Shown here in pieces: positions 10,065-41,836 of a stretch of 50,028 nucleotides of DNA. The stretch is taken from the NCBI GenBank assembly GCA_024636675.1, contig JAGXGM010000050.1:1-50028 (forward strand), written 5' to 3'. The stretch's first letter is position 1. Each line of letters opens with the position of its first letter. Made by a program: the position numbers and the translations under genes. The stretch comes from Hydrogenophilales bacterium. Its GTDB lineage: Bacteria; Pseudomonadota; Gammaproteobacteria; Burkholderiales; Thiobacillaceae. The notes beneath the pieces are model-generated. The model did not search any database. It was not told the origin of the DNA and saw only the letters and a program-made list of their open reading frames with translations.

Positions 10065-10080
10065 AGCCGCCCGGCTGTTT

Positions 10081-10827
10081 TTATCCTCGGCGCGCCGGCC
10101 GGAAAATCTCCAGGTTGGCGTAATACGCGTCGTCGGCGTTGGCCGCATCCCAGCCGGGAATCCCCTGCACCGGAAGCGGGGCAAGCTGGCGCGGGGTGTC
10201 GATGGCCGCGAGAGCCGTGACCGCCTGCGCATCCGCGGCATCGGGATCGAGCGTGTCCGACATCAAAATGAGGCATTTCGCGGTCATCGAGGGGTAGGCC
10301 GCAAGCGCCTTTTCCAGCAGCGCGTGGCCCACCACTACAAAACGCATGTCGGTCTCGACGCGCGGGCGGGCTTCCCAAAAAAGTGCGTGCCATTCACGTC
10401 CGGCCAGCAGTTCGGGCAAGGCCGGGTCGCGGCTGATCGCCCACACGCCCGACTCGTCCAGCATGGTCAGCGCGTCGCGGCGACGCCCGCGCCGGCTGTC
10501 GGCCTCGGTTGCGAGGGCTTCGCCGTGGGCCGCGTTCAGCGCCGCCTTGAAGCGTGGAAAGCGCAGCCATACCAGCGCGTTCAGCACGTCATGCCAGGTG
10601 TCGGCGCGGGTCGGCACCTGCCCGGTGTGCAGGATATGGGTTTCGTAATCGCGCGCCGACAACCGGCCGTCGGGGACAAAGAAACGCAGCGGCAGGCCGC
10701 GCGCCTGGGTCGTGCCGCGGGTGGCGGCCTGCGCGTTGAGGGCATTCAGCGAGGGCAGACCGCGCGCCAGTTCCAGCGTGTCGATCAACGCCCGGTAAGG
10801 CGCGAAGGCGGGGTGATCGAAACTCAA
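10081..10827 (-). CDS. DUF3025 family protein
   Basis: This is a 248-residue cytoplasmic protein of a family of unknown function. The blocks PLRFFVPDGRLSARDYETHI, WHDVLNALVWLRFPRFKAALN and a C-terminal PVQGIPGWDAANADDAYY stretch fit DUF3025. The start is probably the TTG at 10825-10827, which overlaps the stop of the CnoX-like gene (TTGA). The homologous part begins there, and the upstream open frame runs antisense-like through CnoX. Together with pip and the CnoX-like gene it forms a three-gene overlapping unit. Confidence 0.8.
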   Translation of the reverse strand: MSFDHPAFAPYRALIDTLELARGLPSLNALNAQAATRGTTQARGLPLRFFVPDGRLSARDYETHILHTGQVPTRADTWHDVLNALVWLRFPRFKAALNAAHGEALATEADSRRGRRRDALTMLDESGVWAISRDPALPELLAGREWHALFWEARPRVETDMRFVVVGHALLEKALAAYPSMTAKCLILMSDTLDPDAADAQAVTALAAIDTPRQLAPLPVQGIPGWDAANADDAYYANLEIFRPARRG

Positions 10828-11687: not shown

Positions 11688-12649
11688 GGCTCGAATGCTC
11701 CGGTTGCGGCAAAGCGGTCGCAGGCGGCGACGAGTTCGCGTGCGATGCCCGGTTCGAACGCCGAATGGCCGGCGTCCGCCACGATCACATAGCGCGCCTC
11801 GGGCCAGGCGCGCGCCAGCTCGTCGGCTGACACGATGGGGCAGACGACGTCGTAGCGCCCCTGCACGATCACCGCCGGGATGGCGCGGAGGCGGTCGATG
11901 TTGGCAAGCAGGCTGTTGTCGGGCAGGAAGATGTGGTTGACGAAATAATGCGCCTCGATGCGCGACAGCGACAGCGCGGTTTTTTCGCTGCAGAACGCGG
12001 AGACGAGTTCGGGGTTGGGCAGCAGGGTCGAGCAGGACGCCTCGAAGGTGGCCCACTGAAATGCTGCAGGCTGGTGCACCGCTTGGTCGGGATCGACCAG
12101 ACGGCGATGATAGGCGGTGAGCAGGTCATGGCGTTCGGCCTCCGGGATGAATTCCGCCAGCTGCCGCTGCGCCTCGGGAAACAGGGCGCGGATGCCGTCA
12201 AGGAACCAGTCGATCTCGCTTTTTCGGCACAGGAAGATGCCGCGCAGCACCAGCCCGCTGCAGCGTTCGGGATGTGTCTCGGCGTAGGCCAGCGCCAGGG
12301 TCGAGCCCCATGAGCCACCGAACACCAGCCAGGTTTCAATGCCGAGTTCGCGCCGCAGCGCTTCCATGTCCGCGATCAGGTGAGGTGTGGTGTTGTCGGC
12401 GAGCTCGCCGTGCGGCGTCGAGCGGCCACTGCCGCGCTGATCGAACAACACGATGCGATAGTGCGCCGGATCGAAGAAACGTCGCTGGATCGGCGAAGTA
12501 CCGCTGCCGGGGCCGCCATGCACGAACAGAACCGGAATGCCCTCGGGGTTGCCGGAGGTCTCCCAGTAGAGGCGGTGGACATCCGCCGTTTCCAGCATGC
12601 CGCTGGCGTAAGGCGTGATGGGCGGGTATAGCGAAGCAATGTCTGACAT
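11684..12649 (-). CDS. pip: Proline iminopeptidase (alpha/beta hydrolase, S33)
   Basis: This enzyme removes N-terminal proline from peptides in the cytoplasm. The 321-residue protein has the oxyanion HGGPGSG, DQRGSGRS, the nucleophile elbow GGSWGS, the acid region GRYDVVCP and the catalytic His in AGHSAFEP. The length is normal. It is the first gene of the pip / CnoX-like / DUF3025 unit. Its leader (12650-12690) contains an inverted repeat GCCCGAA...TTCGGGC with no T-run. Confidence 0.93.
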   Translation of the reverse strand: MSDIASLYPPITPYASGMLETADVHRLYWETSGNPEGIPVLFVHGGPGSGTSPIQRRFFDPAHYRIVLFDQRGSGRSTPHGELADNTTPHLIADMEALRRELGIETWLVFGGSWGSTLALAYAETHPERCSGLVLRGIFLCRKSEIDWFLDGIRALFPEAQRQLAEFIPEAERHDLLTAYHRRLVDPDQAVHQPAAFQWATFEASCSTLLPNPELVSAFCSEKTALSLSRIEAHYFVNHIFLPDNSLLANIDRLRAIPAVIVQGRYDVVCPIVSADELARAWPEARYVIVADAGHSAFEPGIARELVAACDRFAATGAFEP

Positions 12650-25914: not shown

Positions 25915-26967
25915 ATGCATCGAATGAAAGGTCTGCTCGCGCTGGTTTTTATCGTGATTTCCGGCTGTGGCCAGGACGATGAAACCGTCACTGGCGGAGT
26001 GGATTCGCCCTTCGTCAAGACCGCGGCGGTCGCATCTGCGGATGCGGGCATCGTCGGTCTTTCCGGAACCGTGCGCGCACGTCACGAGACGCCGGTGGCG
26101 TTCCAGGTGGGCGGGCGCATCGCTGCCCGGCGGGTGGATGCCGGCCAAACGGTGCGTGCGGGTCAGGTTCTGTTCGAGCTCGACGCGCGCGATCTCGAAC
26201 AGGCATCCCAGGCCGCCCAGGCTGATGCCGCCGCGGCACAGTCGGCTCTCGCCACGGCGCGCGCCGAGCTGGGGCGGGTGCGGCAACTTAAAGGCCAGAA
26301 TTTCGTGAGCGCGCAGGCGCTCGACCGCAGCGAGCTCGCCGAACGCGAGGCCCGCACCCGCTCGGATGCCGCCCGCGCGCAGCTGGCCCAGGCGCGCAAT
26401 GCGTTGGGCTACGCCCGCCTGAGCGCGCCGGCAGCGGGTGTGCTGGTCGAGGTGAGCGGCGAACCCGGCCAGGTCGTGGCGGCCGGCCAGCGCGTGGCGA
26501 TGCTGGCGCATGCTGGCGAGCGGGAAGTCGAGGTGTTCTTCCCGGATGCGGCAAGACCGCCTGCCACCGGTCAACTGGTCCGCGCAGACGGGGCGGCTTT
26601 GCCGCTGCGCTTGCGCGAGGTCTCCGGCGCGGTCGATCCGCAAAGCCGCACCTGGCGGGCGCGCTATTCGGTGTTGACCGGGGGTGACGCGCTGGCGCTC
26701 GGTTCGGTGGTGCGCGCCGCCTTTACCCTGCCGGGCGGCGACGGGCAGGCGCTGAGCGTGCCGATTGCCGCGCTGGACGAGCGCGGTGAAGGCCCGCGGG
26801 TGTGGACGGTGGTGGATGGGCGCGCCCAGCCGGTGGCAGTCGAGATTCTTGCGCTGGATGCCGAAACGGCGCGGGTGCGAGGCAGCCTGAAGGCGGGCGA
26901 CACCGTCGTCGCGCTGGGCACCCACCTGCTTACCCCCGGGATGGCGGTGCGGGAACTGGCGCAATGA
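25915..26967 (+). CDS. RND efflux periplasmic adaptor (membrane fusion protein), lipoprotein
   Basis: This 350-residue adaptor links an inner-membrane RND pump to an outer-membrane channel. It has a short signal peptide with lipobox VISGC, a lipoyl/barrel-sandwich half at residues about 55-80 (VAFQVGGRIAARRVDAGQTVRAGQVL) and an alpha-hairpin of Ala/Glu/Arg-rich helices (about 85-160). The second lipoyl half (YARLSAPAAGVLVEVSGEPGQVV) and a beta-barrel follow. ATG 25924 is an alternative start with a tidier signal peptide. The stop overlaps the pump gene start (ATGA). No TolC-like gene is nearby. Confidence 0.92.
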   Translation: MHRMKGLLALVFIVISGCGQDDETVTGGVDSPFVKTAAVASADAGIVGLSGTVRARHETPVAFQVGGRIAARRVDAGQTVRAGQVLFELDARDLEQASQAAQADAAAAQSALATARAELGRVRQLKGQNFVSAQALDRSELAEREARTRSDAARAQLAQARNALGYARLSAPAAGVLVEVSGEPGQVVAAGQRVAMLAHAGEREVEVFFPDAARPPATGQLVRADGAALPLRLREVSGAVDPQSRTWRARYSVLTGGDALALGSVVRAAFTLPGGDGQALSVPIAALDERGEGPRVWTVVDGRAQPVAVEILALDAETARVRGSLKAGDTVVALGTHLLTPGMAVRELAQ

Positions 26968-29900
26968 GCTTTCCCAACCTGTCCGCGCTCGCCGTGCGCG
27001 AGCGCGCGGTGACGCTGTTCTTCCTGATTCTGGCGGTGATCGGGGGCGTCTACGCCTTCCTGTCGCTGGGGCGCGCCGAGGATCCATCCTTCACCGTGCG
27101 GGTGATGATGGTTTCGGCAGTGTGGCCCGGCGCGACGCCGCAGGAACTGCAAGAGCAGGTGGTGGACCGGCTGGAAAAGCGCATCCAGGAAGTTGAATAC
27201 CTCTACCGCATCGAAAGCACGATTCGACCGGGGCGGGCGGATCTGCAGGTTGAATTTCAGGACTACGCCCCGCAGGCCAAGGTCCCCGATCTGTTCTACC
27301 AGGTGCGCAAGCGCATGCAGGACGAAGCCCGCAACCTGCCGCAGGGGGTGATCGGGCCCCTCGTCAACGACGATTTTTCCGATGTCTATTTCAAGCTGAT
27401 TGCGCTGACCGCACCGGGCATGCCGATGCGCGAGCTCACGCGTGAGGCCGAAGCCATCCGCGACCGGCTGCAGCGCACCGCGGGCGTGCACAAGGCCATC
27501 GTGCTCGGCGAGCGCACCGAGCGCGTGTACGTCGAATTCGACAATGCGCGCCTGGTCAATCTGGGCATCACGCCCGAGGCCATCGCCGCCGCCATCGACG
27601 CCAACAACCGGCTGGTTCCGGCCGGCCGCATCGAAACCGACGGTCCGCGCCTGTACCTGCGGATCGATGCCGACCTGTCCGATCCCGCGCAGCTCGCGGC
27701 GGTGCCGATCCGCATCGGCGAACGGCTGTTGCGCCTGTCCGACATCGCCACCATCCGCCGCGGCTACGAGGATCCGCCGAGCTACCTGGTGCGCGCGCGC
27801 GGCGAGGAGGCGGTGTTGCTCGGGGTGGTCATCAACGCGGGCGAAAACGGCCTCGAAGTGGGCAAGCGCCTGACGCGCTTTGTCGAGGACGAGCGCGCCA
27901 GGCTTCCGCTGGGCATGTCGCTTGCCGTGCTGACCGACCAGGCCGAAGCCATCGCCGGCGCGGTCAACCTGTTTCAGGTCAAGTTCCTGATCGCGGTCGC
28001 GGTGGTGGTGGGCGTGAGCATCCTCGCCCTAGGGCTGCGCGCCGGCCTGGTGGTCGGTATCGCGGTGCCGCTCACCCTCGGCATCACCTTCCTCGTGATG
28101 AAGCTGATGGGCATCAACCTCGACCGCATCACCCTCGGTGCGCTCATCATCGCGCTCGGGCTGCTGGTGGACGACGCCATCATCGCCGTCGAAATGATGC
28201 TGGTGAAAATGGAGCAGGGCTGGGACCGCGTGCGCGCCGCCGCGCATGCGTGGAGCGTCACCGCCGCGCCCATGCTGTTCGGCACCCTGGTGACGGTGGC
28301 GGGCTTCTTCCCCATCGGCTTTGCGCAATCGGGCGTGGGCGAATATGCGGGCAATATCTTCTGGGTGCTGGGGGTGGCGCTACTGGTGTCGTGGTTCGTG
28401 GCCGTGACCTTCGTGCCGTATCTGGGCGTCAAGCTGCTGCCCGGCTTTGCCAGCCAGGCGCACGGCGAGGCCGACCTCTACCAGAAGCCGCTGTACCGCC
28501 GCCTGCGCGCCGTCATCAGCGGGTGCGTGACGCACCGGAAAACCGTGGTCGCCGGTACGGTCGCGCTGCTGGTGCTGGCGATCGCGGGGCTGGCCGGGCC
28601 GGTGCAGAAGCAGTTCTTCCCGGGCTCCGATCGCCCGGAAGTGCTGATCAGCGTCTACCTGCCGCAAGGCAGCAGCATCGAGTACACGGACCGCACCGTG
28701 CGCAAGCTCGAGGCCATCCTCGCCCCCATGCCGGAGGTCAAGACCCTGTCGGCCTACGTCGGCGCCGGGGCGCCGCGTTTCTTCATTTCCGCCAACCCCG
28801 AACCGCCCGACCCCGCCTTCGCCAAGCTGATCGCGGTGACGCACGATGCCGCCGAGCGCGACAAGGTGATGGCCGAGCTGGAGGCGCACATCGCCCGCGG
28901 CGAGTTCGCCGAAGCGCGGGTGCGCGTCTATCGCCTGCTGTTCGGCCCGCCGGTGATCTGGCCGGTGAGCTTTCGCGTGGTCGGTTCGGACCCGCTCGAG
29001 CTGCGCCGCATCGCCCATCAGGTGCGCGAGGTCATGGCCGCCGATCCCAACACCCGCGACCCCCATCTGGATTGGGACGAACGCGCGCCCGTGCTGCATC
29101 TCGCCATGGACGTGCAGCGCCTGAGCCTGCTGGGCCTGACGCCGCTCGACGTCTCACAACAACTGCAATTCCACCTCGACGGCACGCCGGTGACCCAGCT
29201 TCGCCAGGACATCCGCACCGTCGAGGTGATCGCCCGCGGCGCCCCCAGCCGGCGCCTGGTTGATGCCGGCAGCCTGGCGACCTTCGAAGTGCTCACCCGC
29301 GACGGCCGCAAGCTTCCGCTCGGCCAGCTGGGCACGCTGGAGGTGCGCTACGAGGCGCCCGTGATCAAGCGCTACAACCGCGAACCCTTCGTCGCCGTGC
29401 AGGCGGAAGTGGAGGGCGCGCAACCCAACGACGTCACCGCCGCACTCTGGCGCAAGCTTGAAACGGTCCGAGAGCAGCTGCCCGCCGGCTACCGGATCGA
29501 CATCGGCGGCGCGGTCGAGCAGTCCGGCAAGGCCAATTTATCGATCCAGAAACTGCAGCCGATGATGGTGGCCTTCATGCTCATTTTCATCATGCTGCAG
29601 ATGCGTTCGTTCTCGGGCACCTTCATGGTCGTCGCCACAGCGCCGCTTGGCCTGATCGGCGCAGTCATCGCCCTGCTGCTGTTCAACCAGCCGTTCGGCT
29701 TTGTCGCGCTGCTCGGCCTGACCGGACTGGCCGGCATCCTGATGCGCAACACCCTGATCCTCACGCAGCAGGTCGCCGACAACTTCAAGGAAGGCATGCC
29801 CGCGCTGGACGCCGTCGTTGAAGCCGCCGTGCGCCGCGCCCGCCCGGTGGTGCTGACCGCGCTGGCCGCAGTCTTCGCCTTCGTGCCGCTCACCTTCGAC

Positions 29901-30023
29901 AGCTTCTGGGGCCCGCTGGCCTACGTGCTCATCGGCGGCGTCGCGGTGGGCACCGCGATTACGCTGCTATTCGTGCCGGCGTTGTATGCGTTGTGGTTCC
30001 GGCTGGACGCTTCGCGGACCTGA
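26964..30023 (+). CDS. RND efflux transporter permease (AcrB/HAE1-like)
   Basis: This is a 1019-residue inner-membrane proton-drug antiporter. The N-terminal helix (RAVTLFFLILAVIGGVYAFLSLGRAEDPSF), the large periplasmic porter loops and the proton-relay Asp pair in GLLVDDAIIAVEMM (equivalent to AcrB Asp407/408) are visible. The C-terminal helices end VGTAITLLFVPALYALWF. A longer reading frame upstream lies inside the adaptor gene and is not real. The substrate is unknown: the AEDP motif and the short adaptor point to the less-studied drug/solvent branch rather than heavy-metal CusA. Confidence 0.94.
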   Translation: MSFPNLSALAVRERAVTLFFLILAVIGGVYAFLSLGRAEDPSFTVRVMMVSAVWPGATPQELQEQVVDRLEKRIQEVEYLYRIESTIRPGRADLQVEFQDYAPQAKVPDLFYQVRKRMQDEARNLPQGVIGPLVNDDFSDVYFKLIALTAPGMPMRELTREAEAIRDRLQRTAGVHKAIVLGERTERVYVEFDNARLVNLGITPEAIAAAIDANNRLVPAGRIETDGPRLYLRIDADLSDPAQLAAVPIRIGERLLRLSDIATIRRGYEDPPSYLVRARGEEAVLLGVVINAGENGLEVGKRLTRFVEDERARLPLGMSLAVLTDQAEAIAGAVNLFQVKFLIAVAVVVGVSILALGLRAGLVVGIAVPLTLGITFLVMKLMGINLDRITLGALIIALGLLVDDAIIAVEMMLVKMEQGWDRVRAAAHAWSVTAAPMLFGTLVTVAGFFPIGFAQSGVGEYAGNIFWVLGVALLVSWFVAVTFVPYLGVKLLPGFASQAHGEADLYQKPLYRRLRAVISGCVTHRKTVVAGTVALLVLAIAGLAGPVQKQFFPGSDRPEVLISVYLPQGSSIEYTDRTVRKLEAILAPMPEVKTLSAYVGAGAPRFFISANPEPPDPAFAKLIAVTHDAAERDKVMAELEAHIARGEFAEARVRVYRLLFGPPVIWPVSFRVVGSDPLELRRIAHQVREVMAADPNTRDPHLDWDERAPVLHLAMDVQRLSLLGLTPLDVSQQLQFHLDGTPVTQLRQDIRTVEVIARGAPSRRLVDAGSLATFEVLTRDGRKLPLGQLGTLEVRYEAPVIKRYNREPFVAVQAEVEGAQPNDVTAALWRKLETVREQLPAGYRIDIGGAVEQSGKANLSIQKLQPMMVAFMLIFIMLQMRSFSGTFMVVATAPLGLIGAVIALLLFNQPFGFVALLGLTGLAGILMRNTLILTQQVADNFKEGMPALDAVVEAAVRRARPVVLTALAAVFAFVPLTFDSFWGPLAYVLIGGVAVGTAITLLFVPALYALWFRLDASRT

Positions 30024-30164: not shown

Positions 30165-30199
30165 ACCGGCTCCCAGGGGCTGCATGAGAGATCGCTCAC

Positions 30200-30427
30200 A
30201 TGAACAGCCAGTTCCCGGGCTTCCTGATCAACGACCTGCTCGATATGGAACAATACATGGCCGGCAAGCTGCATTTTGGAATGCGAATCCAGCCCCTGAT
30301 GCCGCTGATCGAATACGCCCTGTGCGATAACCAGGCCTGCGCCAGCCGGCATGAAGTTGGGCTGCATCTGGCGCAAGGCGCCGGCCCGGTAGCCAGGCGC
30401 GAGCATTTCGCCGAACCAGGCGTCTGA
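30200..30427 (+). pseudogene. Remnant of a histidine kinase (dimerisation-helix region), partial duplication
   Basis: An open frame of 75 codons reads NSQFPGFLINDLLDMEQYMAG and then KLHFGMRIQPLMPLIE. It ends with HLAQGAG before diverging and stopping at 30427. It matches residues just after the phospho-His of the two complete kinases downstream: FLINDLLDME...AGKL.F...QPLMPLIE and GLHLAQGAG in the first, AGKLHFEMRPQPLMPLIE in the second. The phospho-His box, ATPase domain and sensor domain are all missing, so it cannot be a working kinase. Its TGA is two bases before the next ATG, so it is translated in line with the operon if expressed at all. Confidence 0.75.
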
Positions 30428-30429
30428 GC

Positions 30430-32571
30430 ATGCACATTCCCCCCATTCCGGAGAACGAGCCGCAGCGACTGCAGGCACTGCATGAGCGAGCGCTGCTCGA
30501 CACTCCGGCGGAGGAGCGTTTCGACCGTCTGACCCGGCTGGCGCGGAGCATGCTTGGAACCCGGATTGCGCTGGTGTCGCTGGTGGACGCCGATCGCCAA
30601 TGGTTCAAGTCGCGCCAGGGTCTGGACGCCTGCGAGACCGGGCGGGACATCTCCTTTTGCGGACATGCCATTCTCGACGACGCTATTTTCGAGATTACCG
30701 ATGCCCGCCTCGATCCGCGCTTTGCCGACAATCCCCAGGTGACCGGGCCGCCCCATATCCGCTTCTACGCCGGCGCGCCGCTGACCACGGTCGATGGCTG
30801 CCGCATTGGCACCCTCTGTATCATCGATGAGCAGCCGAGAAAGTTGACCGCCGCAGAGCGAAGCGCGTTTCGCGACCTTGCTGATTGCGTGGAGGCGGAA
30901 ATCAACCAGATCGATTTGCAACAGCAAAGCAAGGCCCTGAAAAGGGCTCAGCAGCTTGGTGATGTGATCGCACGGGTCCAATCAGGGTTCATCCGGGAAA
31001 CCGATCGGCGGCTTGCTTTTGAAGGGCTGCTGACCGATGTTCTTGCCCTGACCGAGAGCGAATACGGTTTTGTCGGCGAAGTGCTGCGCACCGCGGAGGG
31101 CGCGCCCTATCTGAAGTCATGGGCCACCACCAATATTGCCTGGAACGATGCCACCCGCGCCTTTTACGACGCGCAGGCACCGCAGGGCATGGAATTCACC
31201 AACCTCAAGACCCTGTTCGGCGCGGCGATCGCCAGTGGCGAACCCGTCATCGCCAACGATCCCGGTCACGATCCGCGCCGGGGTGGCTTGCCCGAAGGCC
31301 ATCCCGCGCTGAACGCCTTCCTCGGCATCCCCGTCCATCACGGCGGCGAGATGGTGGCCATGCTGGGCATTGCCAACCGGCCCGGCGGCTACGATCAGGC
31401 GCTGATCGATTTCCTGCATCCGCTGCTGGTTACCCTGGGCCAGCTGGTCGAGGCAGCGCGCATCCGGCAAAAGCACCGCGAAGGGCAGGTTGAACTGGCC
31501 CGGCTGTCACGGGTGGCCAGTCAGACCACCAACGGTGTGGTGATTACCGACGCGGACGGCCGTGTGGAATGGATCAATGAGGGCTTTACCCGCATTACCG
31601 GCTACACACTGGACGAGATGCGTGGTCGCAAGCCGGGCGATGTGCTGCAGGGCGAGGCGACCGACCCGGCGACAGTGGTGAAAATGCACGAAGCCCTGCA
31701 GCAGTGCCAGCCTTTTGATGTGGATATGATCAATTACAGCAAGGCGGGCCAGCCTTACTGGATCAATGTCAATTGCAATCTCTTGCGGGATGGCGCAGGC
31801 GCGCTGCAGGGTTTCATGGCGATCAAGTCGGATATCACCGAGCGCAAGCGCATGGAGCGCATGAAGAGCGAATTCGTGTCCACCGTCAGCCACGAACTGC
31901 GCACCCCGTTGACCTCGATCACGGGCGCGCTGGGCCTGATCGCGGGCGGCGCACTCGGAATATTGTCCGCGCAGGTGCAGCAGATGGTTGTCATCGCGCA
32001 CAAGAACAGCCAGCGCCTGGGTTTCCTCATCAACGACCTGCTCGACATGGAAAAGCTCATGGCCGGCAAGCTGGATTTCGATGTGCGGGGGCAACCCCTG
32101 ATGCCGCTGATCGAAGGCGCGATCCGCGACAACCAGGCCTACGCCGACCGGTACGGTGTGCGGCTGCATCTGGCGCAAGGCGCCGGCGCGGTACAGGTCG
32201 AGGTGGATACCCAGCGGCTGCAGCAGGTGCTGGCCAATCTGCTTTCCAATGCCGCCAAGTTCTCGCCCGAGGGAGGCGCGGTGGCGGTGCGAGCAAGCCT
32301 TGATGGTGCCCGCGTGCGGGTTGAGGTGACTGACCAGGGACCCGGTATTTCGGCCGAATTCCGCGAACGTATCTTCGAGAAATTCTCCCAGGCCGACGCT
32401 TCGGACAGCAGGCAAAAGGGCGGCAGCGGGCTGGGCCTGGCAATCAGTCGAGAACTGATCCGTCGCATGAATGGAACAATCGGTTTTGAGTCGGTAACCG
32501 GCGAAGGCGCCACTTTTTATTTTGAATTGCCTGTTCGTCGGGATGAGCACGCGACGAGAGACCATGCATGA
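30430..32571 (+). CDS. Sensor histidine kinase, GAF-GAF-PAS-HisKA-HATPase
   Basis: This 713-residue kinase is soluble, with no membrane segment. It has GAF1 (about residues 22-160, with ISFCGHAIL and RFYAGAPL), a short helix, GAF2 (about 190-345) and PAS (about 360-472). HisKA follows with phospho-His488 in SEFVSTVSHELRTPLTS, then HATPase (about 590-705) with N-box NLLSNAAKFSPEGG, DQGPGI, KGGSGLGLAISREL. The PAS resembles a LOV domain (GRKPGDVLQG), but the position of the flavin-binding Cys is not Cys, so it is not photoactive. It has no receiver of its own. The stop overlaps the next kinase start (ATGA). Ligands of the GAF domains are unknown. Confidence 0.94.
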   Translation: MHIPPIPENEPQRLQALHERALLDTPAEERFDRLTRLARSMLGTRIALVSLVDADRQWFKSRQGLDACETGRDISFCGHAILDDAIFEITDARLDPRFADNPQVTGPPHIRFYAGAPLTTVDGCRIGTLCIIDEQPRKLTAAERSAFRDLADCVEAEINQIDLQQQSKALKRAQQLGDVIARVQSGFIRETDRRLAFEGLLTDVLALTESEYGFVGEVLRTAEGAPYLKSWATTNIAWNDATRAFYDAQAPQGMEFTNLKTLFGAAIASGEPVIANDPGHDPRRGGLPEGHPALNAFLGIPVHHGGEMVAMLGIANRPGGYDQALIDFLHPLLVTLGQLVEAARIRQKHREGQVELARLSRVASQTTNGVVITDADGRVEWINEGFTRITGYTLDEMRGRKPGDVLQGEATDPATVVKMHEALQQCQPFDVDMINYSKAGQPYWINVNCNLLRDGAGALQGFMAIKSDITERKRMERMKSEFVSTVSHELRTPLTSITGALGLIAGGALGILSAQVQQMVVIAHKNSQRLGFLINDLLDMEKLMAGKLDFDVRGQPLMPLIEGAIRDNQAYADRYGVRLHLAQGAGAVQVEVDTQRLQQVLANLLSNAAKFSPEGGAVAVRASLDGARVRVEVTDQGPGISAEFRERIFEKFSQADASDSRQKGGSGLGLAISRELIRRMNGTIGFESVTGEGATFYFELPVRRDEHATRDHA

Positions 32572-35500
32572 GCCAGGGGACAATCGACCTTCGTGGCGGC
32601 GCCGGCCGTGTGACGCTGTTCGGCACCGCGCTCTTCAGCCGGCGGAGCATCCCGGCGTGGCTCGTCCTGGTCGCCGGTTTGCTCCTCACCGCGTTGCTGT
32701 CGATGGGCCTGGCGGAGCAGCGTGCCCAGAGCGCCGATCGGCAGTTCGAGTTGCATGTGAAGGAGTTGGTGGCGGAAATCGAGGAGCGCCTGCTCGACCA
32801 TGAGCAGATATTGCTCGGCGGGGCTGCCCTGTTCGATGTCAATGGTCTGGTCACACGGGCACAGTGGCGCACCTATGTGGAACGTCTGTCCCTACAGGAA
32901 CGCTACCCCGGTATTCAGGGCGTCGGCTTTAGCCGGGCGATCCCGCCAGCCGCACTGGCGGGCCATATCGCTGAGATGCGTGCCGCAGGCTTTCCCGAGT
33001 ACACGATCAGGCCCGAGGGCGCCCGCCCCCTCTACACCTCCATCATTTATCTTGAACCTTTCGAGGGGCGCAATCTGGCTGCTTTCGGCTACGACATGCA
33101 CTCCGAGCCGGTGCGGCGCCAGGCGATGCGGCTGGCGGTCAACAACGACAGGACAGCCATCTCGGGCAAGGTGAAGCTGGTCCAGGAGACGCATGGCAAG
33201 GAACAGGCCGGGTTTTTGATGTATGTGCCTGTTTATCGCCAGGGGATGCCGCTGGGCAGTGAAGAGGCGCGCTGGCAGGCGTTGCAGGGCTTTGTCTACA
33301 GCCCTTACCGGATGGCGGACCTGATGCAGGGCATTCTTGGCGGGCGCGATCTGGTGGTCGACTTTACCCTCCATGATGGCGAGCCGACGGCGGACACGCT
33401 GATGTATGACACCGCCACCGACCATGCTCAGGAAAGCGGGACGCCGCCTTCGCATCTGTCGAACCGGCGCATTGACGCCTACGGCCAGAGCTGGATGCTC
33501 TCGCTGCGAAGCCGTCCTGCTTTCCAGGCGCAATTCGAGTCGTCGCTCGACTGGATGATCCCCAGTCTGGGTGGGGGCATCAGCTTGTCGCTGTTTGCGC
33601 TTGTCGGGTCGCTGCTCGGTCGCCGGGAGCGCGCCCTGGCCCTGGCCAATGAAATGTCTGCCCGCCGGGCCGAGTCCGAGGAATTGTTTCACCAGTTTTT
33701 CCTGAACATGGGACAAGGCGTGGTGATCCATCAGCCCGATGGCCGCATCGTGGACGCCAACCCGGCCGCCGAGCGCATCCTTGGCCTGAGCCTGGCGCAA
33801 TTGCACGATGTTGCTTCTTTGGGGTCGCGCTGGAAAACCATTCACGAAGACGGAAGTGATTTTCCGCTTGATGAACACCCGGCAATGGTGGCCCTGCGAG
33901 AAGGGCGTGTCGTGAACGACGTGGTGATGGGCGTGTGGCATCCCGCAGGATGGCGCTGGATCAAGATCGATGCCTATTCGCACAATGAAGGCGCTAGCAA
34001 TGCGGAGCAAGGAGTCTATGCGGTATTCAGCGACATAACTGAGCAACGTGCTGCGGATATTGCAGTGCGCCAAGCCCAGAAGTTTCTCACCGACGTGCTC
34101 GCGGCAGCATCCGAGGTCGCCATTATCGCCACCGATCGCGACGGACTGGTCACGATCTTCAACAAGGGTGCCGAGCGTCTGCTCGGCTATAGCGCAGATG
34201 AAGTAGTGGGCAAGCTTACGCCCGCCGTTCTTCATGTGCCGGATGAGGTCGTGGCACGGGCGGCGGAGCTGAGTATCGAGTTTGGCTGCGCCGTCGAAGG
34301 GTTCCGGGTTTTTGTCGAAAAACCCGAACGCGACGGCTCGGAAACGCGTGAATGGACCTACGTTCACAAGAATGGCCACGCCATTCCGGTATCGCTGGTG
34401 GTGACCCCGATGCGTGACGATGCGGGCGAGATTACGGGTTATCTGGGCATTGCCGAAGACATCACTGCGCGCAAGCAGGCGGAAACTGCGCTGCGCGAGC
34501 AGGCGCAACATACGCAGGCGGTTCTCGACAACATGGTGGACGGCATCATTACCATCGACGGGGCCGGCATCATCGGTTCCTTCAATCCGGCGGCCGAGCA
34601 TATCTTCGGTTACACCCCCGCTGAAGTGGTGGGCCGTAACGTCAAGATGCTGATGCCCAACCCACACCGCGATGCCCATGATGGCTATCTGCGCAATTAC
34701 CAGGCCACAGGGGTGGCGCGCATCATCGGCATCGGGCGCGAGGTTGAAGGGCAACGCCGCGACGGCAGCCTGTTTCCGATGGACCTTGCGATTTCGGAAG
34801 TCACCCGTCAGGGACAGCCTCTGTACGTGGGTATGGTGCGCGACATCACCGAGCGCAAGCGGATGGAGCGCATGAAGAGCGAGTTCGTGTCCACTGTCAG
34901 CCATGAGCTGCGCACGCCGCTGACCTCGATTTCCGGTGCGCTGGGCCTGGTGGTCGGGGGCGCGCTCGGCGCACTGCCGGAACAGGCGAGGCAGATGGTC
35001 GAGATCGCGCACAAGAACAGCCAGCGCCTCACCCATCTCATCAACGACCTGCTGGACATGGAGAAGATCGCGGCCGGCAAGCTGCACTTCGAAATGCGGC
35101 CGCAGCCGCTGATGCCGCTGATTGAACAGGCGCTGGAAGCCAACCGGCCGTATGGCATCGAGCGTCAGGTGACTCTGGTTTTAAATGGTGAGGCAGCCGC
35201 TGCCGAGGTGCGGGTGGACAGCCAGCGTCTGATGCAGGTGCTGGCCAATCTGATCTCCAATGCGGTCAAATTCTCGCCCGATGGTGGCACGGTGGAAATC
35301 ACGGTGCGGACAATTGACGGGAAGGCAAGGGTCGCCGTGGCAGATCACGGTCCCGGTATTCCCGAGTCGTTCCGCGCATCCGTCTTCCAGAAATTTTCCC
35401 AGGCAGACGCCTCGGATACCCGGCAAAAGGGTGGCACCGGCCTTGGTCTGGCGATTACACGGGAACTGGTGGAGCGTATGGGCGGCCGGATCGGCTTCGA

Positions 35501-36347
35501 CTCGGTGGAAGGCGACGGCGCCACGTTCTGGTTTGACCTGCCCTTGTTTGTTGCCGCCATGGGCGTTGTAGCATGGAGCGCGCCTGAGGGGGACGCCGAT
35601 GCGCCATGTATCCTGGTGGTGGAGGACGATCCGGATATCGCGCAGGTGCTGGGACTGATGCTCACCCGTGCCGGCTATCAGGTCGATATCGCCGGCACCG
35701 GCGCCGAGGCGTTGCGTGCCCTGCAGCAGACACCTTACGCCGCCATCAGTCTGGACCTGATGCTGCCGGACATCAGCGGCCTGGAGATCATTCGCCAGGT
35801 GCGCCAACGGCCGGAAACGGCCGACCTGCCCATCGTGGTGGTATCGGCCAAGATGGAGGAAGGGCGGTTGGCCATCAGCGGCGATTTTTCCAACATCGAC
35901 TGGCTGGCCAAGCCGTTCGACGAGAACCGCCTGCTGTCTGTGATTGACGGAATGGTCTCGACGGTCGGTTCATCGCATCCGCGGGTGCTCCACGTGGAAG
36001 ATGATGTCGATCTGCATGAGGTGATCCGCGCCATGGTGGGTGGGCGCTTCGATTTCGATCTGGCAACCACCTTGGGCGAGGCCCGTGCCCGGGTGATGCT
36101 GGAGCACTTCGACGTGGTGATTCTGGACCTCAACCTGCCGGACGGTTCCGGCTGGGATCTGCTGCCGGATATCCGGCTGCGACAACCGGATGCACGGGTC
36201 GTTATCCTGTCCGGCACCGACATGACGGCGGACGAATCACGCAAGGTGGAGGCCGTTCTGCTCAAGTCGCAGGTTTCGCCGCGCGAACTGCTTGACGCCC
36301 TCAGCACCCGTATTCAATCATTCAAATTCAAATGGAACAAGTCATGA
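32568..36347 (+). CDS. Hybrid sensor kinase, CHASE-PAS-PAS-PAS-HisKA-HATPase-REC-REC
   Basis: This is a 1259-residue membrane kinase. It has TM1 (about 29-49), a periplasmic CHASE domain (about 75-300: GIQGVGFSRAIPP, AAFGYDMHSEPVRRQAM), TM2 (about 329-351) and three PAS domains (about 370-490, 505-635, 645-762). HisKA with phospho-His779, HATPase (about 880-1000), REC1 (acceptor Asp1063) and REC2 (acceptor Asp1187) follow. PAS3 has His704 and Arg724 in the spacing of the FixL haem ligand and distal Arg, and the IIGIGR motif, so it probably binds haem. The HisKA core closely matches that of the kinase upstream. CHASE domains sense small extracellular ligands. Confidence 0.95.
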   Translation: MSQGTIDLRGGAGRVTLFGTALFSRRSIPAWLVLVAGLLLTALLSMGLAEQRAQSADRQFELHVKELVAEIEERLLDHEQILLGGAALFDVNGLVTRAQWRTYVERLSLQERYPGIQGVGFSRAIPPAALAGHIAEMRAAGFPEYTIRPEGARPLYTSIIYLEPFEGRNLAAFGYDMHSEPVRRQAMRLAVNNDRTAISGKVKLVQETHGKEQAGFLMYVPVYRQGMPLGSEEARWQALQGFVYSPYRMADLMQGILGGRDLVVDFTLHDGEPTADTLMYDTATDHAQESGTPPSHLSNRRIDAYGQSWMLSLRSRPAFQAQFESSLDWMIPSLGGGISLSLFALVGSLLGRRERALALANEMSARRAESEELFHQFFLNMGQGVVIHQPDGRIVDANPAAERILGLSLAQLHDVASLGSRWKTIHEDGSDFPLDEHPAMVALREGRVVNDVVMGVWHPAGWRWIKIDAYSHNEGASNAEQGVYAVFSDITEQRAADIAVRQAQKFLTDVLAAASEVAIIATDRDGLVTIFNKGAERLLGYSADEVVGKLTPAVLHVPDEVVARAAELSIEFGCAVEGFRVFVEKPERDGSETREWTYVHKNGHAIPVSLVVTPMRDDAGEITGYLGIAEDITARKQAETALREQAQHTQAVLDNMVDGIITIDGAGIIGSFNPAAEHIFGYTPAEVVGRNVKMLMPNPHRDAHDGYLRNYQATGVARIIGIGREVEGQRRDGSLFPMDLAISEVTRQGQPLYVGMVRDITERKRMERMKSEFVSTVSHELRTPLTSISGALGLVVGGALGALPEQARQMVEIAHKNSQRLTHLINDLLDMEKIAAGKLHFEMRPQPLMPLIEQALEANRPYGIERQVTLVLNGEAAAAEVRVDSQRLMQVLANLISNAVKFSPDGGTVEITVRTIDGKARVAVADHGPGIPESFRASVFQKFSQADASDTRQKGGTGLGLAITRELVERMGGRIGFDSVEGDGATFWFDLPLFVAAMGVVAWSAPEGDADAPCILVVEDDPDIAQVLGLMLTRAGYQVDIAGTGAEALRALQQTPYAAISLDLMLPDISGLEIIRQVRQRPETADLPIVVVSAKMEEGRLAISGDFSNIDWLAKPFDENRLLSVIDGMVSTVGSSHPRVLHVEDDVDLHEVIRAMVGGRFDFDLATTLGEARARVMLEHFDVVILDLNLPDGSGWDLLPDIRLRQPDARVVILSGTDMTADESRKVEAVLLKSQVSPRELLDALSTRIQSFKFKWNKS

Positions 36348-36721
36348 GCACCTTGCAGCGTATTTTGTACGTGGAGGACGAGCCCGACATCCAGGCGGTG
36401 GCCAAGCTGGCCCTGGAAATGGTGGGCGGCTTTACGGTGAAGGTCTGCTCATCCGGCGAGGAGGCGCTGCGCGAGGCGGTGGCTTTTGCACCCGACATGA
36501 TCCTGCTGGACGTGATGATGCCGGGCATGGACGGCCCCAGTACCCTCAAGGCACTGCGCGCGCTGCCTGGCCTGGCCGAATTGCCGGTGGCCTTCATGAC
36601 TGCCAAGGTCCAGCCGGCCGAAGTGGCGCACTACAAAACGCTGGGCGCACGCGATGTGATCGCCAAGCCCTTCGACCCCATGGCGCTGGCCAGCCAGGTT
36701 CGGGCCATCTGGGAGGGATAG
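36344..36721 (+). CDS. Single-domain response regulator (CheY-like)
   Basis: This is a 125-residue stand-alone receiver: RILYVEDEPDIQ acidic pocket, acceptor Asp56 in MILLDVMMPGMDG, FMTAK switch Thr, and IAKPFDP with the conserved Lys-Pro. There is no output domain, so it likely shuttles phosphate from the kinases to an Hpt domain. The start at 36344 overlaps the kinase stop (ATGA). A second in-frame ATG at 36332 would overlap by 16 bases. Confidence 0.92.
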   Translation: MSTLQRILYVEDEPDIQAVAKLALEMVGGFTVKVCSSGEEALREAVAFAPDMILLDVMMPGMDGPSTLKALRALPGLAELPVAFMTAKVQPAEVAHYKTLGARDVIAKPFDPMALASQVRAIWEG

Positions 36722-36725
36722 GCAG

Positions 36726-38387
36726 GTGGACGACAAACTCAAGGCGGCCATGGCCGCGCAACTCGCGCAATTGCGCAATGACTATCTGGCACGGCTGCCT
36801 GCGGAACTGGCCACGCTGCAGGGTCTGGGTGCAGGCCTGAGCGGAGGCGACGCCGATCGCGCCAGCCTCGATGAACTTCACCACCGCCTGCACAAGCTGG
36901 CCGGCTCGGGGGGCACTTTCGGCCTGGCTGCCCTGAGTGCGGGTGCGCGCACGCTGGAACAGCGGGTCAACGGCTGGCTGGCAGGCTCGCTGGATGGACA
37001 GGGTGCGCAGGCTCGCGAGGCTTTTTCGGCGGCGCTGGCCGCGCTGGGCGAAACGTTGACCGGAGCCGATGTCCCGCCGGCAAGCGTCGCCCAGGCTCGC
37101 GGCGCCGTGGCAGCACCCGGCAAATCGACCCGGGTGTGGCTGGTGGAAGACGATGTTCTGCTCGGTGAGGAACTGGGGCGCCAGCTCGGGTCCTTCAACT
37201 ATGTGGTGCGCCGGTTTACGCGGATTGGCGACGCCGAGCACGCCGCGCGGACGGAACGCCCCGACATGCTCATCATGGACGTCATGTTCGAGCAGGAAGG
37301 GGAAAACGCAACCGAGGTGTTTGCCCTGCACCCGAACCTGCGGGCGCTTGACTGCCCGCTGCTATTCATCACCTCCATGGATGATTTCCAGTCGCGAGTG
37401 CGTGCCGCGCAGCTGGGTGCCCTGGGTTATTTCCTCAAGCCACTGGACGTTCCCCGGCTGGTGAGCCGGATGACGCACATTTTTGAACAGCAGTACGCGC
37501 CGGCGCAACGGGTGCTGATTGTCGATGACGATAGTGATCTGGCCGAGCATTACCGGCTGGCCCTGCTGGCCGCCGGGATGGAGGCGGACGTGCTGCAGGA
37601 GCCTGTGGCCATCATGGAAAAGATTGCAGCTTTCCGGCCTGAGCTGGTGCTCATGGATATGCATATGCCCACCTTTTCAGGGCCGGATCTCGCGGGGGTG
37701 ATCCGCCAGCATGACAAGTGGTCCAGTCTGCCCATCGTTTACCTCTCTGCCGAGACCGATCTCGACCGGCAGATGGAGGCGATGGACCGCGGTGCGGATG
37801 ATTTCCTGACCAAGCCGATTTCCGACGCCCAGCTCGTTGCGGCCGTGCGCATCCGCATCGAGCGCGCCCGCCATCTGGACGAGCAAATCAATCGTGATAG
37901 CCTGACCGGGTTGTTGAAGCATGCCAGCGTCAAGGAGGCGGCCGCGATCGAGGTGATTCGTTCCCGCCGCAACGGCAAACCCGTCAGCTTGGCGATGCTG
38001 GACATCGACCATTTCAAGTCGGTGAATGACACCTATGGACATGCGGTGGGCGATGTCGTCATCTCGTCGGTCGCCATGCTGCTGCGCCAGCGCCTGCGCC
38101 AATCCGACATCGTCGGCCGCTATGGCGGTGAGGAATTCGTCGCGGTGCTGCCGGAATGCGATGCCGGGCATGCGCGTCTGTTGATGGAGGATATTCGCCA
38201 GCGTTTTGCCTCTTTACGCTTCAGCCACGAAGGGAAAGAATTCAACTGCACGCTTTCCGTTGGCCTGGCCTGCTCGGCCGCCTACCCGGACAGCGATGGC
38301 GCAGCATTGCTCGTCGCTGCCGACGAAGCCCTGTATGTCGCCAAACGGGGCGGCCGCAATCAGGTTCGGGAGAGGAAACCTGCATGA
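36726..38387 (+). CDS. Hpt-REC-REC-GGDEF diguanylate cyclase
   Basis: This 553-residue cytoplasmic protein makes cyclic-di-GMP under phosphorelay control. It has Hpt (residues 1-115, phospho-His56 in LHKLAGSGG), REC1 (about 136-252, Asp185 in LIMDVMFEQ), REC2 (about 262-378, Asp311 in LVLMDMHMP) and GGDEF (about 388-550). The active site GGEEF (467-471) is intact, as are the DIDHFKSVND metal site and the product-inhibition motif RQSD (458-461), five residues before GGEEF. A GTG codon starts it, with GGGAGGGATAGG upstream. An Hpt domain at the front of a two-receiver cyclase is unusual. Confidence 0.94.
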   Translation: MDDKLKAAMAAQLAQLRNDYLARLPAELATLQGLGAGLSGGDADRASLDELHHRLHKLAGSGGTFGLAALSAGARTLEQRVNGWLAGSLDGQGAQAREAFSAALAALGETLTGADVPPASVAQARGAVAAPGKSTRVWLVEDDVLLGEELGRQLGSFNYVVRRFTRIGDAEHAARTERPDMLIMDVMFEQEGENATEVFALHPNLRALDCPLLFITSMDDFQSRVRAAQLGALGYFLKPLDVPRLVSRMTHIFEQQYAPAQRVLIVDDDSDLAEHYRLALLAAGMEADVLQEPVAIMEKIAAFRPELVLMDMHMPTFSGPDLAGVIRQHDKWSSLPIVYLSAETDLDRQMEAMDRGADDFLTKPISDAQLVAAVRIRIERARHLDEQINRDSLTGLLKHASVKEAAAIEVIRSRRNGKPVSLAMLDIDHFKSVNDTYGHAVGDVVISSVAMLLRQRLRQSDIVGRYGGEEFVAVLPECDAGHARLLMEDIRQRFASLRFSHEGKEFNCTLSVGLACSAAYPDSDGAALLVAADEALYVAKRGGRNQVRERKPA

Positions 38388-39148
38388 CAACGAATATGGA
38401 AGCTTTCCAGGCATTGCTGGGGGGAATGCGTGCCGACTTCCTGGCCGAGCTGCCGGAACGCTCCGACAGTTTCGAAGGATCGATCCTGACCCTGGAAAAA
38501 TCACCAGGCGACCGCGAGGCCTTCAATGAACTATACCGGGGCGTTCATAGCCTGAAGGGTTCGGGAGGCACCCATGGTCTTTCCATCATCACCACGATTT
38601 GCCACCAGCTGGAAAATCTTCTCAGCGAGACCGAAGCCCGGCAGGAATTCAGCACCGCCTTCGCCACACGGGCGCTGGCCTACGTCGATCTGTTGCGCCA
38701 GGTCGAGCCAGCCGCGCGGCAGGCGCAGCCGAACTTTTCGGCCATCGTGGCCGAGTTGGAGACCTTGCACCGATTGAGGCTGCAACGCCGCAAGGCCGGC
38801 CTGATCGCGGAGTCCTCCAGCGTGATGACCGGGCTCTATCAGAAGGCACTGGAGACGTTGCCGCTGCAACTGACGGTGGTGGACGATGGCCTGACGGCAC
38901 TGGCGCGCCTGTTGCATGAGCCGTTCGATTTCGTCATCGTCGGGCGTGAACTCAAGGAGCTCAACGGCCTGGCCCTGATGATCGCCGTGCGGGCCGCCAA
39001 GGCGCGCAACCAGGACATCCCGGCGATTCTAGTGAGCAGCAAGCGCGGCTCGCTACCGGATCAGGCACGCTTCAGCGCCACCCTTTCACGCGACCAGAAA
39101 CTTGCCGAGAACCTGGTTGCCGTTGTGCGGACGATATTGCCGGCGTGA
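38384..39148 (+). CDS. Hpt phosphotransfer protein with a degenerate receiver-like C-domain
   Basis: This 254-residue protein has an N-terminal Hpt domain with phospho-His55 (VHSLKGSGGTHG) and a C-terminal segment from about residue 160 (LTVVDDGLTALARLLHEPFDFVIVGREL) with the shape of a receiver. At the acceptor position there is Gly187 instead of Asp, so this half cannot be phosphorylated in the usual way. It probably docks another component, or is a dead-end regulator. The start overlaps the cyclase stop (ATGA). It is the last gene of the five-gene cluster. A longer open frame beginning inside the cyclase gene was rejected. Confidence 0.88.
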   Translation: MTTNMEAFQALLGGMRADFLAELPERSDSFEGSILTLEKSPGDREAFNELYRGVHSLKGSGGTHGLSIITTICHQLENLLSETEARQEFSTAFATRALAYVDLLRQVEPAARQAQPNFSAIVAELETLHRLRLQRRKAGLIAESSSVMTGLYQKALETLPLQLTVVDDGLTALARLLHEPFDFVIVGRELKELNGLALMIAVRAAKARNQDIPAILVSSKRGSLPDQARFSATLSRDQKLAENLVAVVRTILPA

Positions 39149-40490: not shown

Positions 40491-41726
40491 CTAACCGTCA
40501 CTTTCCACCTGTAATTCCGGGACGTGGCTGAAGGCGATGCGCATCGGCGCGGCGCCGCGACCGCTGTGGGCGCCGCCGAAGTACAGGGTGTTGGGGCCGT
40601 AGCGCTGGTTGATCTGGTCGAGCACGCTGTTGAGGTTTTCGTGCTGGTCGTCGGGGTCGAACAGGTCGCGGGTGATCTGGCTGTGCTCGGCGAGGTGGAG
40701 CAGGGTGACGCCGACTTTGAGGATGGGAGCGGGATCGGGCGGGCGGCGTTGCCATAGCTCAGCCAGCACGGGGTTGAATTTGAGGGTGTCGGCATGCGGC
40801 GAGAAGCGGGCCTGATCGGACCAGTGGGCGGGTCCGTTGCCGCGTTGCAGGTAACTCAGGTGCAGGCCGAGGCCGCCGGCGCAGTTGCCGTAATGGCGCA
40901 TCCGCATCGCGGCTTTGTGCAGCAGGCGGTAAAGCACTGCCAGGGCGGAGGCGGGGTCGCGCAGGTCGGGCGCGAGCACGTGCGAATGGCCGACGCTGGC
41001 ACGTTGGGTGGGGGTGGATGCCACCGTCTCGCCGCGCAGCCTGGCATAAAAGCGTTCGCCTTCGATGCCACCCCAGGCCTGGCACAGGGTGTTTTTGCTG
41101 GCGGCGCATAGTTGTTCGACGCTGTGAATGCCAAGCCGGTTGAGGCGCGGCTCCATGGCGCGCCCGATGCCGGTGAGGGCACCGAGCTTGAGGCCGTACA
41201 GGTGCTGCGGCAGCTCGTTCTGGCGGATCACGACCAGCCCGTCCGGCTTTTGCATGTTCGACGCGGTCTTGGCGAGAAAGCGATTGGGCGCGATGCCGAC
41301 CGAACTGTGCAGGACCTTGCCCACCTGGTCGTAGATCGCCTGCTTGATCTGCCGCCCGAGGGCGACGGCGTTGGCTTCCTCGCGGTCGCTGCCCATCAGC
41401 TCGCAAGCCATTTCGTCGATCGACAGCACAGCGCCGACGGGGGTGCACGATTCGACCGCGGCGACGATGCGGTGATGGATTTCCACGTAGGTGGCCGGGC
41501 GCGCCTGCACGAACACGATGTCGCGGCATAGCTTGCGGGCCTGCCACACCGGGGTGCCGGTCTTGATGCCGAATCGCTTGGCGTCGATGCTGGCCGCGAT
41601 GCAGCAGGTGGTGTCGGCCATCACCGGCAGCACGCCCACCGGCTTGCCGCGCAGTTCGGGACGCAGCTGCTGCTCGACCGATGCGAAGTAGGAATTGAGA
41701 TCGACGTATAGCGTATGCAATGACAT
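40491..41726 (-). CDS. Y-family DNA polymerase (DinB/UmuC/ImpB-like)
   Basis: This translesion DNA polymerase is about 411 residues long. The catalytic carboxylates are present: Asp9 in YVDLNSYFASVEQQ, and Asp104/Glu105 in LSIDEMACEL. HSSVGIAPNRFLAKTASNMQKPDG is the family block. The palm/fingers sequence (ADTTCCIAASIDAKRFGIKTGT) differs from typical DinB and UmuC, so it is a separate branch. The C-terminus lacks an obvious beta-clamp-binding peptide. ATG 41726 was chosen over a GTG at 41738. A 28-bp inverted repeat lies about 110 bases upstream and probably controls it. No umuD or imuA partner is adjacent. Confidence 0.9.
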   Translation of the reverse strand: MSLHTLYVDLNSYFASVEQQLRPELRGKPVGVLPVMADTTCCIAASIDAKRFGIKTGTPVWQARKLCRDIVFVQARPATYVEIHHRIVAAVESCTPVGAVLSIDEMACELMGSDREEANAVALGRQIKQAIYDQVGKVLHSSVGIAPNRFLAKTASNMQKPDGLVVIRQNELPQHLYGLKLGALTGIGRAMEPRLNRLGIHSVEQLCAASKNTLCQAWGGIEGERFYARLRGETVASTPTQRASVGHSHVLAPDLRDPASALAVLYRLLHKAAMRMRHYGNCAGGLGLHLSYLQRGNGPAHWSDQARFSPHADTLKFNPVLAELWQRRPPDPAPILKVGVTLLHLAEHSQITRDLFDPDDQHENLNSVLDQINQRYGPNTLYFGGAHSGRGAAPMRIAFSHVPELQVESDG

Positions 41727-41836
41727 GGCGCGCTTCACTTATCACTCCGGCGGTGCAGGGTTGTTGCCGTTTGAGTGGTTTGACAGCGATGGCCTGTCCC
41801 ATGCGGGGACAAGCGCGGGGGTGCGGATCAATGCTG

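Follow-up and report, generated by a model that had tools for sequence, protein, structure and literature searches.

A probable split phosphorelay with a single-domain receiver hub upstream of an Hpt-REC-REC-GGDEF diguanylate cyclase in a Hydrogenophilales bacterium

The Spo0 phosphorelay of Bacillus runs from its kinases (KinA-E) through Spo0F and Spo0B to Spo0A. Spo0F is described as a single-domain intermediate receiver (PMC9981736). The single-domain receiver MrrA of Caulobacter is reported to be charged by at least six kinases and to feed more than one phosphotransferase, in a bow-tie arrangement (PMC5964349). Several kinases also take part in the DivJ/PleC-DivK-PleD system of Caulobacter (PMC7003649), where PleD consists of receiver, pseudoreceiver and cyclase domains and has no Hpt (PMC12632262), and HmrABCX of the same organism is a putative phosphorelay whose Hpt proteins act on cyclic di-GMP (c-di-GMP; PMC11481889). 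In Pseudomonas, GcbA (PA4843) is an active diguanylate cyclase with two REC domains (PMC9355167). Here we analyse a cluster of five forward-strand genes, A to E, in a contig of 50,028 nucleotides (nt) from a Hydrogenophilales bacterium (JAGXGM010000050.1, hereafter the window), which makes up the whole of contig G000:C82 in a 2.54-Mb draft genome that is 81% complete. The cluster probably encodes a split multi-step phosphorelay, in which kinases would charge a lone receiver, C, that serves as a hub and passes phosphate to the Hpt domain of the diguanylate cyclase D, and from there to its second receiver and its GGDEF domain, with E as a side branch. No description of an Hpt-REC-REC-GGDEF protein or of this cassette was found in the open-licence literature, most subscription papers lying outside the search.

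The first gene, A (30430..32571), encodes a kinase of 713 residues with the order GAF-GAF-PAS-HisKA-HATPase and no receiver, and the second, B (32568..36347), a hybrid kinase of 1259 residues with the order CHASE-PAS3-HisKA-HATPase-REC-REC. They are followed by the lone receiver C (36344..36721), the proposed shuttle or intermediate receiver, by D (36726..38387), an Hpt-REC-REC-GGDEF diguanylate cyclase of 553 residues, and by E (38384..39148), an Hpt joined to a pseudoreceiver. This roster, which the original prediction had drawn from the sequence, is borne out by Pfam. The tally also holds: there are two kinase cores, five receivers that have the canonical residues, two Hpt domains and one pseudoreceiver. 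The four joints are indeed tight, with ATGA overlaps between A and B, B and C, and D and E, and a gap of 4 nt between C and D, which starts at GTG. The first ATG of C is at 36332, but its start most likely lies at 36344, because of the ATGA overlap with B and the match to homologues. Within D, Pfam places the Hpt domain at 36768..37046 (residues 15-107), REC2, the proposed output switch, at 37512..37850 (residues 263-375), and the GGDEF domain at 37890..38363 (residues 389-546), which keeps both the I-site RxxD458 and the active-site motif GGEEF467. The phosphorylation sites found are His488 in A, His779, Asp1063 and Asp1187 in B, Asp56 in C (counted from 36344), His56, Asp185 and Asp311 in D, and His55 in E. 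The cluster thus holds a complete His-Asp-His-Asp set, with a kinase His, an intermediate receiver Asp, an Hpt His and a terminal receiver Asp.

With these parts, A, a cytosolic GAF/PAS sensor, and B, a membrane CHASE/PAS sensor, would autophosphorylate on His488 and His779, respectively, and would transfer phosphate to Asp56 of C, in the case of B perhaps in part by way of the receivers that it carries itself. Phosphorylated C would be a shuttle without any output of its own, handing its phosphate to His56 in the N-terminal Hpt of D, from where it would move on within D to Asp311 of REC2. Once phosphorylated, REC2 would drive the assembly of the active GGDEF dimer and c-di-GMP would rise, the I-site being limiting, while REC1 would be an accessory receiver. 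Finally, His55 of E would compete for phosphorylated C and its pseudoreceiver would serve protein contacts, so E may be either a side branch or a sink. From sequence we infer each of these transfers and the way it runs, as well as what happens to c-di-GMP and what E does.

The central place given to C rests on its subfamily signature, on its adjacency to Hpt domains and on its co-occurrence with D and E. A class-wide search with C yielded a strong group of matches with E-values of 4e-35 or lower (62 genomes, own genome aside) and four weak ones at 9e-26 to 4e-21, with none in the gap between 4e-35 and 9e-26. Of the 67 strong matches, 66 were examined as loci (G150:C1:1924425 was left out), and in 38 of these an Hpt begins within 450 nt downstream of C. 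It belongs to D in 24 loci, is a stand-alone Hpt in 11 and is E, directly following C, in one (L256), while in the two remaining loci it is probably part of a split D (L278) or is cut by the contig end (L277). In L278, an Hpt-REC-REC frame after C overlaps a GGDEF frame (6432-8121), probably as the result of a frameshift or a sequencing error in a D gene. The stand-alone Hpts are about 105-140 residues long, four of the 11 overlap C by 8 nt, and Pfam accepts all five that were tested. As a control we took an independent lone-receiver family from the same genome, and none of its 30 best-scoring matches in 274 genomes has an Hpt within 450 nt downstream. The cut of 15 bits used to call an Hpt was set after four of the 30 control loci had given weak matches of 7.7 to 12.4 bits; the Hpts counted at C loci score at least 44.9 bits, except the truncated one in L277 (17.5 bits). 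Even without the 24 cases of D, C is followed by an Hpt in 14 of 42 loci versus 0 of 30 in the control (Fisher test, which like the others here ignores relatedness, 2e-4). Another control, drawn from the same loci as C (47/76 for C versus 7/19 for other lone receivers, p = 0.07), was dropped as unusable because its seven other receivers followed by an Hpt lay upstream of D.

Moreover, C keeps company with D and E at the level of whole genomes. It occurs in 34 of 44 genomes with D and in 18 of 19 with E, where 7.4 and 3.2 would be expected from its overall presence in 62 of 368 genomes; the 19 genomes with E are those with matches at 2.1e-32 or lower, and seven at 1e-12 to 1e-15 were omitted. 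The association holds where no linkage is seen, as C is present in 11 of 21 genomes with D versus 28 of 324 without it, and in 15 of 16 genomes with E versus 44 of 349 without it. One genome counted as unlinked (G453) has C and D at contig ends, so they are perhaps linked, and its removal leaves 10 of 20 (p = 7e-6). Counted by family, C is also found in 27 of the 33 families with D, among 173 families in all. Two genomes (G077 and G101) that have no receiver of C's type beside D hold a hybrid kinase paired with C on another contig.

The receivers themselves differ in a way that fits their proposed places. A switch aromatic, Phe or Tyr three residues before the catalytic Lys, is found in REC2 of 72 of 72 D proteins and in REC1 of 69 of 72, and is replaced by Val (35) or Leu (1) in every one of the 36 lone receivers of C's type that precede D. 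This coupling position is reported to be Tyr in all CtrA-type output receivers and variable elsewhere, and intermediate receivers are held to need no such switch (PMC9981736). The absence of the aromatic from C and its presence in REC2 of D are therefore consistent with C as the intermediate and REC2 as the output receiver. At the end of beta4, where the motif named FATGUY lies (PMC9981736, PMC5964349), C reads FMTAKVQ and lacks that motif. Over 42 lone receivers this stretch has Phe in 35, Thr in 42, Ala in 38 and Gly in 4 at the Gly position, and last Val in 29 and Gln in 34.

The occurrence of D was followed through relatives gathered from the genus and family, from the class and from a species-wide collection. 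Together, the window, 17 of 80 loci, 19 further regions and 40 of 49 class-wide matches gave 72 distinct loci, once four duplicates (L134, L136, L186 and L202) and one locus with D cut by the contig end (L135) had been left out and a second D copy in L047 had not been counted; being picked by similarity to D, this sample favours close kin. D is present in 45 of 369 sampled genomes of the class and in 40 of 272 genera (E-value of 1e-85 or lower, the window's own genome included). A lone receiver lies directly upstream of D in 42 of the 72 loci, and 36 of these receivers are of C's type. In four more loci (L128-L131, from four genomes of one genus), a receiver also of C's type (6e-37 to 3e-39) is fused in front of the Hpt of D, an architecture checked by Pfam on one of the four. 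An AlphaFold model of this REC-Hpt-REC-REC-GGDEF fusion (mean pLDDT 81.7, pTM 0.42) reproduces the series of domains, with relative positions too uncertain for docking. Of the 42 loci with a lone receiver, 39 have a kinase in the same run (several kinases in 14), at least one of them hybrid in 27 cassettes and none with a receiver in 12, so that in these 12 the lone receiver is the sole receiver ahead of the Hpt; in four of them it is not of C's type. Since the order kinase, lone receiver, Hpt-REC-REC-GGDEF recurs across many genera, it is not due to chance; Thioalkalivibrio sp. ALJ7 (L041), for example, has two kinases, C and D. A rapid LG+G4 tree was built from 99 of 124 aligned homologues of D, 25 rows of the GcbA type having been omitted, and linkage to a lone receiver needs 13 changes on it, six of them forced by well-supported branches.

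In contrast with this core, the exact five-gene set is ruled out as a conserved system, as only kinase, C and D recur. E follows D in five of the 72 loci (window included), and a truncated remnant is found in a sixth (L118), where the Hpt of E has been lost and the pseudoreceiver part alone remains beside D (11988-12308). As a gene of its own, E is present in 27 of 369 genomes (1e-12 or lower, own genome included), 19 others than the window's own reaching 2.1e-32 or lower. Its Hpt is recognized by Pfam at 50.6 bits and its REC weakly, at 24.7 bits, under the cut-off of 30.2, although the C-terminal part has a receiver fold (AlphaFold mean pLDDT 91.5, with Foldseek matches to receivers). The site of the phosphorylated Asp reads VIVGRE in the window, and an Asp stands there in none of the 26 aligned rows inspected by eye, which makes this domain a pseudoreceiver. 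The Hpt His, on the other hand, is kept in all 26 rows, also by eye, and His55 is invariant in a 12-row alignment (A1). From these sequences E would be a second Hpt client of C, acting as a branch or a sink.

A further client may be present in the same genome, where another contig (L309, G000:C58) encodes an Hpt-REC-REC-PAS/GAF-HisKA-HATPase-REC protein of 1331 residues (6606-10601). Its N-terminal Hpt-REC-REC part resembles D, with a Pfam Hpt score of 22.4 bits, just under the cut-off of 24.6, and proteins like it directly follow C in L294 and L295, so it is possible that this protein is a second client of C that feeds another kinase. The unit is one or more kinases, C and an Hpt client, and the cyclase, the commonest client seen here, may not be the only one.

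This outcome bears on the original prediction, which had seen a five-gene relay converging on one cyclase and combining several sensors to set c-di-GMP. A multi-step relay with several sensors and a c-di-GMP output is supported, D keeping its GGEEF and I-site motifs intact, whereas the five genes do not form the unit, E being beside D in only six of 72 loci, and the cyclase is not the centre, a place that falls to C. The prediction had named conserved neighbours without the cyclase among the observations that would refute it, and for the cyclase as the point of convergence they were found, as C also adjoins stand-alone Hpts where there is no cyclase. The cyclase was likewise taken as the only output, though the relay may have other clients, such as the Hpt-REC-REC-kinase and proteins that join REC to an HD domain. 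A search of other genomes for the ordered domain set, as had been proposed, recovered kinase, lone receiver and D in order, and left the five-gene set as a local one.

Proteins with REC and an HD domain (PF13487) lie in or near the clusters of four tested relatives (L040, 2537-3601; L042, 6294-7394; L167, 1571-2638; L132, 10941-12251), with none in the cluster of the window. We take them to be of the HD-GYP type, and they are possible candidates for opposing phosphodiesterases. In another relative (L204, 6058-10358) D comes after a CheA-like protein and a lone receiver that is not of C's type, possibly a Wsp-like rewiring of this cyclase family. L192 likewise has a lone receiver with a CheA-like protein, about 2.5 kb upstream of D.

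The Hpt His is kept in 71 of the 72 D loci. Among the 42 D proteins of the cassettes, REC2 is nearly invariant (Asp in 41, Ser in 42, Lys in 42) and REC1 drifts (Asp in 38, Lys in 37). In alphaproteobacterial relatives (L110, L112 and L114), a lone receiver is followed by a REC-REC-GGDEF protein without Hpt, whose REC1 is intact and whose REC2 is degenerate, the reverse of the pattern in D. Such neighbours, together with PleD as the closest solved relative of D and with the catalytic residues that both D receivers mostly retain, raise the alternative of a scheme like that of PleC/DivJ, DivK and PleD, with kinases that phosphorylate the receivers of D directly, phosphorylated C as an allosteric kinase regulator or a phosphate sink, and the Hpt of D working in reverse to drain D to C. 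We consider it unlikely, because the receivers of those three alphaproteobacterial proteins are the inverse of those of D, because an Hpt adjoins C even where there is no cyclase, and because the aromatic that an output receiver should have at the switch position is absent from C.

The kinases point to C in a different way. In B, one hydrophobic stretch lies on either side of the CHASE domain (residues 31 and 333), as in a membrane sensor, and the C-terminal receivers make it a hybrid histidine kinase; A has no receiver and a single hydrophobic stretch, within HisKA, which makes it a cytosolic sensor. Their kinase cores are 67% identical, versus at most 39% for the other intact kinases found in the genome, so that A and B probably address one common partner. 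The same is seen across cassettes when 34 hybrid and 12 plain kinases adjoining C are compared with 60 other kinases: DHp identity is 0.59 between hybrid and plain kinases, 0.60 and 0.585 within the two groups, and 0.46-0.47 versus the others. Hybrid and plain cassette kinases being alike in their DHp, they most likely have one common partner, C. The motif SHELRTPLT[S/A] is missing in three of the 34 hybrid and two of the 12 plain kinases beside C, and is carried by 26 of the 60 others, many of which are further kinases of the same clusters. Even the nearest relatives, in turn, differ in their sensor domains, with CHASE-PAS3 in the window, GAF-PAS in both L038 and L118, and PAS alone in L039, which indicates that sensors have been exchanged on a fixed core; the nearest named relatives at the locus are Hydrogenophilales and Thiobacillus metagenome-assembled genomes (L038 and L039).

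The two canonical receivers of B, and the fact that the kinase next to the lone receiver is a hybrid in 25 of 39 cassettes, would suit a classical hybrid relay from the HisKA of B through its REC1/REC2 to the Hpt of D (and E) and on to the receivers of D, with A and C as auxiliaries. This seems less probable still than direct phosphorylation of D, since 12 of the 39 cassettes have no kinase with a receiver and hybrid and plain kinases share the same DHp type, so that hybrid receivers are dispensable to the design, and since C co-occurs with D and E even unlinked. A decaying or partly non-functional cluster, its sensors without a working relay as in genomes where D stands alone, is most improbable, for although there is a kinase relic upstream of A, D has neither kinase nor lone receiver in G101 and G072, and E has lost its Hpt in L118, the catalytic residues looked for in A to E are intact except in the receiver of E, the frames are full length and tightly joined, and G077 and G101 keep a hybrid kinase and C elsewhere in the genome.

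Transfer from the kinases through C to the Hpt of D is thus the arrangement that we favour, although several observations tell against it. No Hpt lies within 450 nt in 28 of the 66 C loci, and a kinase is found just upstream of C in only 33 of the 66; 10 of 44 genomes with D lack C, and 16 of 62 genomes with C have neither D nor a strong E. Six of the 42 lone receivers upstream of D fall outside C's type (L119, L122, L124, L125, L126 and L204), and another two (L044 and L169), being atypical, were excluded from the C model, so a different receiver can replace C, and one of the 39 cassette 'kinases' is CheA-like (L204). Finally, of the 26 D proteins that have no lone receiver linked or fused to them, 25 keep the Hpt His, and its retention therefore does not need a linked C; only the GcbA-type and Hpt-less clades show its loss, and that of GcbA is one clade on the tree and not many independent events.

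A more general proposal, which we hold tentatively and with somewhat less than even confidence, is that C represents a previously undescribed family of phosphate hubs, each consisting of a single receiver, that is distributed across the Gammaproteobacteria (as GTDB defines them, with the betaproteobacteria included). Kinases that are interchangeable and of one conserved DHp type would charge C, and C would feed interchangeable Hpt clients, namely Hpt-REC-REC-GGDEF, Hpt-REC-REC-kinase, Hpt-pseudoreceiver and stand-alone Hpt proteins. Such a bow-tie would have arisen independently of that of MrrA, and GcbA would be a disconnected descendant.

The remaining features of the region are of less consequence. 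The relic upstream of A (30191..30391, forward strand) matches A by blastn at 81% over 201 nt, in the DHp region, and B at 76% over 135 nt, and its translation is 72% identical to A over 68 residues; it is a non-functional fragment of a third kinase core and points to repeated duplication and loss of kinases in the cluster. The interval of the original prediction, which began at 30200, takes in most of these 201 nt. An open frame of 731 residues opposite B (32892-35087, reverse strand) most likely arises as a shadow of coding sequence with a high GC content, and a scan for promoters and terminators gave no more matches than chance. The flanking genes encode an AcrB-type efflux protein (26961-30020, PF00873) and a Y-family polymerase-like protein (40494-41738, reverse strand, PF00817), neither with an evident link to the relay.

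If the favoured arrangement is correct, it would be a widespread wiring plan by which many sensors reach one c-di-GMP enzyme, with C as a specific, testable intermediate and a phosphotransferase built into the cyclase itself. As a natural and compact cassette, it would make specificity in multi-kinase networks open to experiment. It would also suggest how GcbA evolved, a protein that has no activating kinase known to us and looks like a family member that lost Hpt and REC1 and kept REC2.

Among the described systems, PleD is the best solved relative of D, over the REC2-GGDEF part, and D shares with PleD the REC-REC-GGDEF order, an active GG(D/E)EF motif and an I-site, as far as can be judged from its residues. 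However, a PleD-type protein has a phosphorylatable REC1, a degenerate adaptor REC2 and no Hpt, whereas D carries an Hpt, and of its two receivers REC2 is nearly invariant and REC1 drifts. The likeness to DivK-PleD, a lone receiver gene beside a REC-REC-GGDEF gene, is the one seen in L110, L112 and L114. GcbA has a homologous REC-REC-GGDEF part, and the N-terminus fits the Hpt model of the D family in 28 of 33 GcbA-type rows (L054-L087 except L059, which has the His). The phosphorylated His is lost in 33 of these 33 rows, two being gaps, REC1 is degenerate and has lost its Lys while REC2 is kept, Pfam sees no Hpt in the one protein tested (L057, 9407-11035), and no lone receiver shorter than 200 residues adjoins GcbA in the loci examined. 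GcbA therefore appears, from these alignments, to be a member of the D family with a dead N-terminal Hpt and a degenerate REC1, encoded by an orphan gene, in contrast to D, whose domains are intact and whose gene lies with those of the kinases and C. HmrABCX differs in having one central hybrid kinase, separate Hpts and a proposed link to DgcB, and the available part of its description mentions no Hpt-REC-REC-GGDEF protein. As proposed here, C would resemble MrrA in joining several kinases to more than one phosphotransferase in a bow-tie, but MrrA is of the FATGUY type and has kinase-like acceptors (PhyK, LovK), whereas C reads FMTAKVQ and its neighbours are true Hpts. The cluster resembles the Spo0 phosphorelay, finally, in having more than one kinase, an intermediate receiver that stands alone, a His phosphotransferase and a receiver at the end of the chain, the difference being that in D the phosphotransferase and the terminal receiver form one protein, and that the output is c-di-GMP synthesis instead of transcription.

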